From an uncultured Mediterraneibacter sp. (GTDB lineage: Bacteria; Bacillota; Clostridia; Lachnospirales; Lachnospiraceae): a stretch of 64,000 bases of DNA. The number at the start of each line of letters is the position of its first letter. Positions within the stretch are counted from its first letter, which is position 1. Positions 15,224 through 18,682 of this stretch are shown one piece after another. The notes under the pieces are model-generated. The model was given only the letters and a program-made list of their open reading frames with translations. It was not told the origin of the DNA and did no database searches. A program made the position numbers and the translations under genes. The stretch lies in the NCBI GenBank assembly GCA_944381495.1, contig CALWLJ010000005.1, positions 1-64,000 of the forward strand. The letters are read 5' to 3'.

Positions 15224-16153
15224 ATGTCACATTATTATAACAGTGCACTGGAACTGATCGGCAATACTCCGCTGGTGGAAGTGTCTAATATTGAAAAGAG
15301 CGAGGAGATGCAGGCGAAGATACTGGTGAAGCTGGAGTATCTGAATCCAGCAGGAAGCATAAAGGACCGCGCTGCAAAGGCGATGATCGAAGATGCGGAA
15401 GAAAAAGGACTTCTGAAAAAAGGTACGGTGATCATTGAACCTACGTCGGGAAATACAGGAATCGGTCTGGCGGCAATTGCTGCTGTCAGGGGATACAGGA
15501 TCATCCTTACCATGCCCGAGACCATGAGCGTAGAGCGGCGGAATATCCTGAAAGCGTATGGAGCCGAGCTGGTACTGACAGAAGGAGCGAAAGGCATGAA
15601 AGGTGCGATCGAGAAAGCAGAAGAGCTTGCCCGGGAGATCCCGGACAGCTTTATTCCCGGACAGTTTGTCAATCCTGCAAATCCGGCCGCCCACAGAGCG
15701 ACAACAGGGCCGGAGATCTGGAAGGATACGGATGGAAAAGTGGATATCCTTGTAGCTGGAGTAGGAACCGGCGGTACCATTACCGGGGCAGGAGAATATC
15801 TGAAAGAGATGAACCCGGCAGTACAGATCGTGGCTGTTGAGCCCGAAGGATCACCGGTGCTGTCAGAGGGAAAGGCCGGGAAACATGGCATCCAGGGAAT
15901 CGGAGCAGGATTTGTACCGGACGTGCTGAACACTTCCGTATATGACACAGTGCTCAGGGTAAAAGAAGACGAAGCCTATGCGGCAGCAAAGCTGCTGGCG
16001 AGAAAAGAGGGCGTTCTGGTGGGAATCTCCTCCGGAGCAGCTCTTCACGGAGCAATCAAACTGGCAAAACAGCCTGAAAACAGAGGGAAGGTTATTGTGG
16101 CGGTCCTGCCCGATTCCGGAGACAGGTATTACTCCACACCGCTGTTTGGATAA
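15224..16153 (+). CDS. cysK: Cysteine synthase A
   Basis: A 309-residue PLP enzyme (O-acetylserine sulfhydrylase) that makes cysteine from O-acetylserine and sulfide. Motifs: the PLP lysine in [11 protein letters not shown] (near residue 45), the substrate loop [12 protein letters not shown], the phosphate-binding [12 protein letters not shown], and SSGAALHGA near the end. Length and order are normal for CysK. It follows metY in the same orientation behind an AAGGAGGAAG site. Downstream begins the palindromic-repeat region. Confidence 0.93.
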
Positions 16154-16246
16154 TAGCGTTTTTTCAGAAAGCATCCAGAAACGGGGCGGATGATTGGCGT
16201 CACGTATTCTGGGAAAAGGAGACAGCTGTGCGATGTTCCGTTCCAT

Positions 16247-16376
16247 AATCCGGAAAATCTAACAGGCCGAAGAGATGTTTAAAAGCAAACCGGCGCGCAG
16301 GGCAACTCACTCCGCTCAAACAATCCCTGCGCGCCGATTAACAACATCTCTCCGCCCTTAAGATTTTCAGCGGATT
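16247..16376. repeat. Palindromic element A (conserved-loop family 1)
   Basis: A ~130-base imperfect palindrome. The inner stem is a perfect 12 bp (CGGCGCGCAGGG / CCCTGCGCGCCG, 16289-16336), and complementarity continues outward through AGAGATGTT/AACATCTCT and GAAAATCT/AGATTTTC to AATCC/GGATT. The 22-base apical loop (CAACTCACTCCGCTCA...) recurs almost unchanged, as its reverse complement, in the loop of element B, though the stems differ. It lies after cysK and has no T run, so it is not simply a terminator. Confidence 0.7.
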
Positions 16377-16476
16377 CTTCCAAAGTCACATCTCCCGGCC
16401 GTCTCCTTCCCCCAGAAAGTATACTCAAATCGTCCGCCCCGCTTCCTGCACTGTCCAAATTGGAAATGCTGTTGCC

Positions 16477-16565
16477 TAAACAGGCCACAGCGCAAACTGG
16501 CGCGGCTTGGAGTTCTTACCATTTGTAAGACTTCCGGGCCGCGCCTCTTGTTTCCGGGCTGTTTA
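16477..16565. repeat. Palindromic element C (inverted partner of D)
   Basis: An ~89-base palindrome: TAAACAG/CTGTTTA at the base, GGCGCGGC/GCCGCGCC in the middle, GTTCTTAC/GTAAGAC at the top and a CATTT loop. Its core (about 16500-16554) reappears as a reverse complement at 18429-18483 with only about four differences in 55 bases. The two copies thus flank the Rpn-type nuclease gene as inverted repeats about 1.9 kb apart. Confidence 0.75.
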
Positions 16566-16589
16566 TCCGCTGACTTCCGTCCTGAACAG

Positions 16590-16858
16590 ACTAGAAAACA
16601 GAGCTGATCTCGAAAACCTTTCTGCGGAGATGGAGATGGTGGACGGGTGCCTTCGAAAGGGTATTAGTTAAACTTAGAGTTCCGGGGATAGACGTTAGGG
16701 CTGGCGGTGAGATTGTCTGAACGAAGTGAGTTGCTCGCCGCCAGTCCTTGTATTTAGTCTGTCTCCGGAGCTCTTAGTTTTAACTTATACCCTGGAGCGG
16801 AGCCCGGATGCCATCTCCCTCCCCGCAGAATACGTTTTGAAAATCCCGCTGTTTTCGG
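16590..16858. repeat. Large palindromic element B (conserved-loop family 1)
   Basis: A ~270-base imperfect palindrome that could fold into one long hairpin. Arms match through GAAAACAG, TCTGCGG, GGAGATGG, AGGGTAT-AGTTAAA, CCGGGGATAGAC and CTGGCGGTGAG with their complements. The apical loop (ATTGTCTGAACGAAGTGAG...) is the reverse complement of element A's loop with 19 of 22 positions equal. It ends about 40 bases beyond the stop of the Rpn-type gene, so it lies in that gene's 3' region. No reading frame of note inside. Confidence 0.75.
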
Positions 16859-16896
16859 ATGTTTAATCATCGAAGTTATTGCGCTAAACAGCCATT

Positions 16897-17928
16897 TTAC
16901 ATCACCGTGATCTCCGGACACTGCTCCATAAACTGTTGAAGCGAATCCGCCCGGGCAGCTGTCTTATTCCATCTTCTCAGAGTCTCCAGATTTGTCTCTC
17001 TCATGATCCTCTGCTGGATCTTTTCGGGAACAGGCCCTAACTCAGACAGCAGATAGACCACTTCTTCCGCCTTGCTTTCTCTCCGGGTGGCCTGAACATC
17101 ATATCCTTCGAAATTATCCAATAACATTGTAAATTCCCTCCGTTCTATCCGGTCGGTGAACTCTGTCACCTCTTCCGTCGGAACATTCAGCTTGTACAGC
17201 AGTACCGCGATGATTGATGATATGAGCTTCAGGACGGACTCGGGAGAATTCTGGCTTATATTTTCCAGATACTCCTCGGGAATGTCCTTAAACTTCTTAA
17301 AGTCCGACGCATTCCTTAGCTTGTCCACGAGCATGATCAGGGAAAGTTCGTCTCCTTTTTCGATCAGTTCCTGGTCCGTGTACTTCTGAAGGGGTACTAC
17401 CAGATACTGAAAGCTCGGGATGTAATCACCCAATACATCGCTGAGAAAGACTCTGTCCCTGAAATCCCGGGCCGCTGTCCAGTTGTCTGTCCCGTCATAA
17501 AATACAATGGGAAGTATAGGCGGATACTGAAAACTTTTTGTCTTCGTGATTCCCGGATGTAGCGTTTCCTGATCCTTTGCATATTCGTCCAGGATCATTA
17601 CTACATACCGGAGGATGCGGAATGACATATCGTAATGCACCGATGACTGATGTTCAATCAGTGCGATCACATACAGGACGATCACCTTTCCGTCCCTTTT
17701 GATCCGGATCTTCTTTACAGAGTCCGAATCTCTTTCCTCCTGCCAGAGCCATAGAAAACGCTCCGACATATCCTCGATATCTTCCGGCTGCACATCCTTC
17801 AGCATATCGATCCCCACATACCCACGCAAAAACTGGGCGCAGAGGAACGGGTCGTCAAAGATCTTCTTTGAGCTGCTGTCTCTAGTCTTCGTGTTCCGTA
17901 TGCTGTTGTTCCTTTTGCCTTTTGCCAT
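16897..17928 (-). CDS. Rpn/YhgA-like PD-(D/E)XK nuclease or transposase-like protein
   Basis: A 343-residue protein of the Rpn family (recombination-promoting nuclease / putative PD-(D/E)XK transposase). Diagnostic are KIFDDPFLCAQFLRGYVGIDML near residue 22, the nuclease strand pair around VIVLYVIALIEHQSSVHYDMSFRILRY with the Glu-x-Gln-Ser active-site segment, and PPILPIVFYDGTDNW. The C-terminal ~120 residues are helical. Characterised Rpn proteins cut DNA and raise RecA-independent recombination. The start at 17928 follows AAAGGAGAAGC. It sits alone inside a cluster of six palindromic elements; a role in spreading them is an inference. Confidence 0.8.
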   Translation of the reverse strand: MAKGKRNNSIRNTKTRDSSSKKIFDDPFLCAQFLRGYVGIDMLKDVQPEDIEDMSERFLWLWQEERDSDSVKKIRIKRDGKVIVLYVIALIEHQSSVHYDMSFRILRYVVMILDEYAKDQETLHPGITKTKSFQYPPILPIVFYDGTDNWTAARDFRDRVFLSDVLGDYIPSFQYLVVPLQKYTDQELIEKGDELSLIMLVDKLRNASDFKKFKDIPEEYLENISQNSPESVLKLISSIIAVLLYKLNVPTEEVTEFTDRIERREFTMLLDNFEGYDVQATRRESKAEEVVYLLSELGPVPEKIQQRIMRETNLETLRRWNKTAARADSLQQFMEQCPEITVM

Positions 17929-18088
17929 AGCTTCTCCTTTCGTAACTGAGAATGTACAGGCAAAAGACAAATTCCAATTACTCTTTCTACATTTCTATTG
18001 TAACAATCCAATAATAGAAAAACAAGAAGATTGGACGTTTCTGCCGTTAACATTCTCCTGGGCCGCACTGTTCCCCATGTCTCAGTAT

Positions 18089-18232
18089 CCAGCTAAACGG
18101 CGCTGTATTGTCACGAAGACCCGTAACAGAGCGCCGGTACTTAGGCCGTGTCCTTTGCGGCCTTACGTGTCCGCTGCGCTATGTTCCGAGCGTAAGCGTG
18201 GTCGCCGGGATAATACAGCGCCGTTGTAGCGG
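18089..18232. repeat. Palindromic element E (conserved-loop family 2, expanded loop)
   Basis: CCAGCTAAACGGCGCTGTAT at the left pairs with ATACAGCGCCGTTGTAGCGG at the right. The loop starts with CACGAAGACCCGTAACAGAG, the same as element F apart from two bases, but then holds about 70 extra bases between two CGCCGG copies. It lies upstream of the Rpn-type gene. Confidence 0.7.
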
Positions 18233-18240
18233 ACGTTTGA

Positions 18241-18430
18241 ACACAAATGAACAGTAGCATTTAGATGCTTTGTTTCTCCATCAAACTGAACATGAATTTC
18301 GCAGCCGAACGGCCATGAATTTCTGAAAGGGATACAAGATATCTGTTTCCCATCGAGCGTATGAATCTCCTGGACGGATCCGCTCTGATCTGTTGATGTA
18401 AGCGCATTATACTTCAGTTCCCGGCAGAAA
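18241..18430 (-). other. Stop-free coding-like stretch, possible gene remnant
   Basis: Reading the minus strand from 18430 gives 62 codons without a stop (begins FCRELKYNALTSTDQSGS, includes FRNSWPFGCEIHVQFDGE). The composition looks protein-like, but there is no start, no ribosome site, and both ends run into palindromic elements D and E. I do not recognise the family. It may be a fragment of a gene broken by the repeats, or chance. Confidence 0.3.
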
Positions 18431-18496
18431 ACAAGAGGCGCGGCTCGGAAGTCTTACAAATGGTAAGAATTTCAAGCTGCGCCGATTTGTGTTCTG
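18425..18496. repeat. Palindromic element D (inverted partner of C)
   Basis: A ~72-base palindrome with AGTCTTAC-AAATG-GTAAGAAT at its tip and GGCGCGGCT/AGCTGCGCC below, flanked by CAGAA/TTCTG. It is the reverse complement of the core of element C with about four changes in 55 bases, several of which keep pairing by G-T wobble. It stands on the far side of the nuclease gene from C. Confidence 0.75.
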
Positions 18497-18510
18497 GACT
18501 ATTCAGGCCT

Positions 18511-18607
18511 GTTTCCGGTATCCAGCTGTCAAGGCGGTGTGTTGTCACGAAGGCCCGTAGCAGAGCGCCGGGACAACACACCGCCTTTACAGCGGCCCCC
18601 CGGAAAC
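18511..18607. repeat. Palindromic element F (conserved-loop family 2)
   Basis: A ~97-base palindrome: GTTTCCGG/CCGGAAAC at the base and AAGGCGGTGTGTTGTC / GACAACACACCGCCTT as a perfect stem. Its loop (ACGAAGGCCCGTAGCAGAG...) matches that of element E. The stem sequence differs from E yet stays complementary, so the two copies show compensatory change. It ends about 75 bases before the gene at 18683. Confidence 0.75.
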
Positions 18608-18682
18608 AAATGAACTATATCCCTCTTCCCGCTATGAAAGATCATCGAATTATGCTAGAATGGTTTTACCAGGAGGTCTGTT

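Follow-up and report, generated by a model that had tools for sequence, protein, structure and literature searches.

The 64,000-nucleotide stretch analysed here (the window) comes from the genome of an uncultured Mediterraneibacter sp. (G000; 3.19 Mb in 39 contigs) and contains six long imperfect palindromes, named A to F, around a single gene for an Rpn-type nuclease of the PD-(D/E)XK kind. We consider it likely that these palindromes are local copies of a dispersed, mosaic family that resembles miniature inverted-repeat transposable elements (MITEs), is probably mobilised in trans and is not run by the Rpn gene. Members of the family are dispersed over the genome in many intergenic copies, have recurrent termini and differ between related genomes at orthologous sites; the core of one module covaries strongly, the same core lies between terminal inverted repeats (TIRs) and target duplications in a relative (G223), and no general linkage to Rpn genes was found. 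Below, G-numbers denote genomes, C-numbers contigs and L-numbers fetched loci.

Palindromes of the window and their copies elsewhere

Folding of the window predicted long imperfect hairpins at all six positions where the original prediction had placed palindromes, and the four 150-nt segments of lowest energy in the 64 kb all overlap them. The arm-pairing scores, which are strand-symmetric, were 60.4 for A, 56.3 for B, 18.7 for C, 18.5 for D, 28.1 for E and 27.4 for F. As controls, 100 random window segments were scored at each of three lengths, giving means of 7.8 at 90 nt (maximum 18.9), 11.2 at 170 nt (maximum 19.1) and 15.9 at 300 nt (maximum 23.0). A, B, E and F scored above all controls; C and D fell slightly under the top of their 100 controls, yet both recur as a family.

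Modules A and B proved even larger than first noted, A having outer arms at 16178-16200 and 16423-16445 and B reaching the terminus CTAAACAGCCA at 16884-16894. The stretch 18259-18424 is not palindromic and is part of the leader conserved upstream of Rpn homologues. The palindromes themselves are crossed only by putative open reading frames (ORFs) called mechanically in a program-made list. Of the proposed pairs A/B, C/D and E/F, C and D are inverted copies (85%), and F is an E-type hairpin without the core, with a gap between two GCCGG repeats when compared with an E copy elsewhere in the genome; judging from this alignment, the core of F was apparently lost between the two repeats. A and B have end motifs and hairpin tip in common but differ in mid-stem. 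The best explanation for the window is that it holds the remnants of three insertions, namely an A-C-B unit (unit 1), a solo E and a partial C-E unit made of D and F (18425-18619), as listed in Table 1.

Searching the two gene flanks against the own genome with BLAST gave 60 and 66 matches (overlapping, with self matches and both-strand palindrome matches counted). Of 39 regions fetched, 38 carry modules (that of the window is one of them) and 24 carry at least two module types; the 39th had been fetched for its Rpn gene. After merging, the fetched regions held at least 8 pieces of A, 21 of B, 21 of C/D and 32 of E/F, all lower bounds since at most 30 loci per flank search were used. However, the regions at C11:94.7 kb and C27:10.0 kb have an identical E copy and identical flanks, and may represent a single place that was assembled twice. 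The order in which the modules recur is E (reversed)-C-B or A-C-B, with similar spacing; A-C-B is found again at C19:45.6 kb and C6:19.6 kb, and A-C at C15:5.3 kb. The ends of the units resemble TGGCTGTTTAG and CTAAACAGCCA, both of which were present in 13 of 18 copies of the window's family when up to three substitutions were allowed. The left end of unit 1, CCGCTGTTTGG, lies inside the 3' end of cysK and has three differences from TGGCTGTTTAG.

Orthologous sites and signs of mobility

The closest relative, Ca. M. stercoripullorum (G052), also has such units at orthologous sites, but with a different set of modules kept or lost. At its cysK locus, A survives as its outer arms and B as its right end, and the Rpn gene, E, the leader and D-F are missing. 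When five element sites in two 20-kb stretches of the own genome were compared with G052, four differed and one had E in both. The differences consisted of a deleted 64-nt tip of F, missing inner arms of E at a GTCC repeat, a unit that together with the adjacent gene had shrunk to fused ends, and an absent short B-C. Four further sites, chosen because their contents differ, showed B absent, E absent, A versus another unit, and E-C plus an A-type end versus a short B between the same ends. The related-strain comparison that the original prediction had proposed found units lacking or altered in G052 at several orthologous sites, and its description of a dispersed, non-autonomous-looking family agrees with the copies elsewhere in the own genome and with their differing presence between relatives.

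Units can be endpoints of gene loss: a rhaD-like gene (named by eye) beside E-C-B at G000:C10:17.1-18.5 kb is missing at G052:C118:600-760, where fused element ends remain. A segment of 3-3.4 kb with E, a leader-like piece and C is found at 96-98% identity in G000:C32 (L037), G052:C45 (L101) and G025:C31 (L102), and may reflect a recent transfer. Two other repeats came to light in the same comparisons. One is another long, strong hairpin at C10:25993-26173 (L235:10994-11174), with copies in G052, whose orthologous site carries a C-E unit. The other is a separate hairpin family represented by G000:C6:35694-35876 (L233:9695-9877), with at least 31 more places in G052; because many of these lie at contig ends, it is probably a common repeat that breaks assembly.

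The clearest transposon signature was obtained from G223, which belongs to another genus. An E-core element was amplified in this genome, and all ten copies fetched lie inside an element of about 272 bp that forms a single long hairpin, with the inverted ends GGGTGTCAAAAGCC and GGCTTTTGACACCC at no more than two substitutions in 10/10 copies. The 8-bp flanks, taken at a fixed offset, agree at 6-8 of 8 positions in these ten copies (mean 7.4), as compared with 4.2 for cross-copy pairs. The G223 ends are of the GGGTGTCAAAAGCCCTTA type and those of the own-genome units of the TGGCTGTTTAG type. Duplications of 8 bp with such ends are reminiscent of ISL3-type transposases. With regard to a phage or plasmid origin, which was considered and set aside, the composite element was unmatched in phage and plasmid records, the G223 element was unmatched in plasmids, and two DNA patterns had no exact match in viral contigs.

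In the mechanism that we propose, long hairpins without protein genes would have inserted three times around the Rpn gene, presumably copied by a DDE-type transposase that was supplied in trans from elsewhere in the cell. As the comparison of alleles suggests, the inserted palindromes would then decay, chiefly through the loss of internal stretches between short direct repeats, and swapping of modules among copies would produce the mosaics.

Table 1. Positions of the palindromic modules, the Rpn-like gene and associated features in the window
Feature	Position	Strand	Remarks
Unit 1, A-C-B mosaic palindromic unit	16139..16894	+	ends CCGCTGTTTGG and CTAAACAGCCA (exact)
Module A, ~300-nt hairpin	16160..16462 (approximate bounds)	+	first-noted 16247-16376 is the inner part
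Module C, ~90-nt hairpin	16474..16565	+	tip CTTAC-5 nt-GTAAG
Module B, ~330-nt hairpin	16566..16894	+	elsewhere also shortened copies without inner part
Rpn-like gene, PF04754 Transposase_31, 343 aa, open frame	16897..17928	-	profile match E 3.7e-22
Solo E element	18066..18258	+	ends CACTGTTC...TGAACAGTAGC
E core (model R1), covarying fold	18098..18223	+	alignment row L066:2351-2476
GNRA tetraloop of E core	18192..18195	+	GTAA in the window copy
Conserved leader upstream of Rpn homologues	18251..18424	-	first bases overlap E
Module D, C reversed	18425..18509	-	sequence comparison with C
Module F, core-deleted E-type hairpin	18510..18619	+	comparison with E copies

The Rpn gene among the palindromes

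By its profile match the window gene belongs to the Rpn family (PF04754), which includes RpnA-E of Escherichia coli. The original prediction had taken the gene and the palindromes as one system, and a rival to the reading given above is accordingly that the PD-(D/E)XK protein acts on the palindromes by cleaving or mobilising them, gene and palindromes moving together. A general association between the family and these palindromes was not found. The own genome has only three PF04754 matches as compared with 38 regions with modules. Among 58 genomes of the genus, a composite element probe matched 42 (with up to ten candidate places scored per genome) and PF04754 matched 25; both occurred in 20, the elements only in 22, the gene only in five and neither in 11 (Fisher P 0.38, for PF04754 only and not the whole PD-(D/E)XK/Rpn superfamily, PF12784 not being searched). 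The elements are thus frequent in genomes without a PF04754 match, which is largely what the original prediction had itself named as evidence against a single system.

The same picture emerged around the Rpn genes of relatives, for which the best 80 of 101 loci found were taken with flanks of up to 10 kb (1.31 Mb). The E model, which does not detect A, B or C, gave eight hits in seven of these loci, and only three hits in two loci, L153 (which is G052) and L182, lay within 1.5 kb of the gene. In the 69 loci that could be scored, the mean hairpin percentile beside Rpn genes did not differ significantly from that beside other ORFs (5' side 0.455, P 0.22; 3' side 0.446, P 0.13; either side 0.469, P 0.47). 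Furthermore, A, B, C and E were unmatched in stretches of 2.2-3.5 kb around the Rpn genes of G024, G023, G007, G038, G056 (two genes) and G041. The conserved leader has matches, in L100, L112, L113 and L115-L117, upstream of the Rpn homologues of G052, G024, G023, G007 and G038 and, in shorter form, of G056. It carries a motif near CAGCCGAACGGCCATGAATTTCTGA and could be a promoter or an RNA leader. Upstream of the Rpn gene of G052 the solo E is absent.

In G052 the thiC locus combines E-C-A with an open Rpn gene that retains its leader; in G000 it holds E-C with an Rpn remnant. This remnant shares 91% of 195 nt with the G052 gene and, in the upstream piece, 87% of 122 nt; with the window locus it shares 77% of 235 nt, some 50 nt of B included, and 76% of 121 nt in the upstream piece. 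Since the remnant is nearer to the G052 gene than to the window locus, two Rpn paralogues must have existed, each adjoining palindromes.

Several observations weigh against a family that moves in trans and independently of the Rpn gene. At both the G000 cysK locus and the G052 thiC locus a unit end, CTAAACAGCCA, lies 2 nt short of the Rpn stop codon. In L182:9529-11252 two E copies in direct repeat, which share flanking sequence as well, enclose an Rpn gene, a layout that could represent linkage. Rpn loci also fall slightly more often than expected into the tail of strongest hairpins, the fraction of loci below the hairpin percentile 0.1 being 0.145 (5'), 0.188 (3') and 0.217 (either) against roughly 0.1 expected. 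As regards mobility itself, the end motifs were matched permissively, with up to three differences in 11 positions, and no target duplication was seen in the window's own family (direct-repeat score 4.1 as compared with 3.9 in the control, 13 copies), as might be expected if these copies are older. The clear signature from G223 concerns the E core only and another genus, and no transposase was tied to the family in a survey of PF01797 and PF04754 alone. Moreover, E is present in both genomes at C6:40.9 kb and at the site shared by G052 C53 and G000 C27 and C11, and at C10:25.6 kb an insertion in G000 is indistinguishable from a deletion in G052.

The first three of these points, together with the whole block missing at the cysK locus of G052, are those that favour an Rpn-driven system. 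Set against the co-occurrence and flank data above, they leave such a system very improbable. The Rpn gene is probably a separate, volatile accessory gene that lies between two units, outside the repeat system.

The E core and related systems

The fold of the E core was examined in an alignment of 40 cores picked from 59 distinct ones. It has 43 pairs, 27 of which show compensatory change on both sides, and 97.0% of the cells pair as compared with 81.5% in shuffles. The covariation score was 0.448 versus 0.157 in shuffles, none of 500 shuffles reaching as high, and 0.05-0.10 for slid structures, although part of the excess over the slid versions is built in since the structure was drawn from the same alignment. 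The loop after CCGAGC is a GNRA tetraloop in 40/40 cores, with seven variants. With regard to the strand, minor G.T and A.C pairs numbered 56 and 20 on the window plus strand in the structural E alignment, as compared with 20 and 51 in the other strand's own fold. Arm alignment of the own-genome copies gave G.T/A.C counts of 94/43 for B, 27/49 for E in the window orientation, 39/32 for C and 8/16 for A. We trust the genus-wide E result over the conflicting own-genome count, since its pairing was read from a structural alignment, and note that the folding program itself favours G.T over A.C. Taken as a whole, the modelled pairs favour the E core being the fold of one specific strand.

A known RNA family was considered and dropped, as no Rfam family was found: the window and 12 further loci gave no match at the gathering threshold in Rfam 15, and a relaxed search gave three weak matches to microRNA hairpins, on A and F and none on E. 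With one genome sampled per genus, the E model matches 96 of 299 in the Lachnospiraceae, the own genome being one of them. In seven of nine family-wide loci the core caps a stem that is perfect or nearly so, the stem sequences being unrelated between loci; for the remaining two (L123 and L127) the inspected stretch did not contain the core. In G167:C21 (L310) three E-core elements stand in tandem with a period of 187 bp.

Of 40 loci with the ileS leader, which resembles a T-box, 28 contain one or more E copies and 20 contain two in opposite orientation (L272 comprising only 108 bases). These elements (L093, L096 and L257-L296; Mediterraneibacter spp.) lie between the leader's terminator and the ribosome-binding site. 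From 50 hits, 48 were used after two weak ones were dropped, namely 22 antisense and 26 sense copies. Of the 231 and 325 species pairs, respectively, 187 and 208 had left arms that were less alike between species than either was to its own partner arm, and it follows that the stems turn over yet stay complementary at a fixed site.

A further rival reading takes the elements as host-function RNA structures, such as leaders or terminators, kept by selection on gene expression and not mobile. The strong covariation with the GNRA loop, the presence of E in ileS leaders and the fact that many units adjoin gene ends are in keeping with this view. It is nevertheless quite improbable: the 43 own-genome clusters had no clear orientation preference towards the flanking genes (14/11/10/8; heuristic ORFs, one cluster without an upstream ORF), the E copies of half of the ileS leaders are paired in opposite orientation, presence differs between sister species, and G223 shows TIRs with target duplications. 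A fixed gene orientation, considered as a property of the family in its own right, was not seen in the same 43 clusters. Retention of the core at the hairpin tip, as a fold of one particular strand, makes it probable that the core serves the element itself, in the form of single-stranded RNA or DNA.

A more far-reaching proposal is that the E core (about 95 nt, strand-specific and GNRA-capped) is a family-wide mobile module, independent of the surrounding transposon ends, that stands at the apex of a locus-specific inverted repeat because it either targets hairpin apices for insertion or copies its flank into an inverted duplicate by snap-back copying. We regard this as rather doubtful; if it were true, the E core would represent a type of element able to make palindromes or to ride on them.

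For the interpretation of single loci, the window demonstrates that a striking layout around a nuclease gene can be the local density of a genome-wide repeat. The E core, present in a third of the sampled Lachnospiraceae genera and matched by no Rfam family, amounts to a sizeable component of common gut bacteria that lacks annotation, and the E elements join MITE-type transposition and conserved single-strand folds, which are usually separate subjects. Across species, the ileS leader offers a natural series of long palindromes at a single orthologous position, so that the turnover of stems, compensatory changes and the deletion of palindromes can be measured. No paper recognisably on these elements was found in the open-access literature on palindromes, MITEs or structured RNAs of Lachnospiraceae, Clostridia and Blautia or on Rpn and palindromes, as represented mostly by titles and the beginnings of abstracts.

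The nearest comparison outside the MITEs is with repetitive extragenic palindromic (REP) sequences, their bacterial interspersed mosaic elements (BIMEs) and REP doublets forming hairpins (REPINs), and the last rival explanation is that the palindromes are REP/BIME-like elements mobilised by a Y1 (HUH) TnpA_REP protein, or REP-associated tyrosine transposase (RAYT), acting on single-stranded hairpins. The conserved single-strand fold would suit such an enzyme, Y1_Tnp matches with RAYT-sized open frames (246-309 aa) are found in 37 of 58 genus genomes, and extragenic palindromes combined as mosaics of modules are known from BIMEs (PMC2817692). However, in 24 Y1_Tnp loci (163 kb, some cut by contig ends) no E core, the only module looked for, was found within about 4 kb of 20 RAYT-sized genes or within 1.5 kb of four IS200-type genes; by comparison, one third of rayt genes are reported to be directly associated with BIMEs (PMC2817692). 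The modules here measure 90-330 nt, whereas the REP palindrome is described as 20-40 nt with a GTAG or CGTC foot (PMC3733652); GTAG varies between copies of the core. G014, G024 and G030 carry elements without a Y1 match. Finally, single-strand transposition by a Y1 enzyme would not account for the 8-bp target duplications seen in G223. Mobilisation by a RAYT is therefore improbable.

The family of dispersed, mosaic hairpins is closest to MITEs, with which it shares short, protein-free and dispersed copies, terminal inverted repeats and, in G223, 8-bp target duplications. Unlike MITEs, the whole element is here a near-perfect hairpin with a covarying, GNRA-capped core at its tip, and the window copies are mosaics of up to three hairpins. 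Long palindromes are unstable and suffer deletion between short direct repeats; the shortened forms seen here likewise end at short repeats (GTCC, GCCGG), and deletions of this kind would explain F, the short B and the lost E copies.

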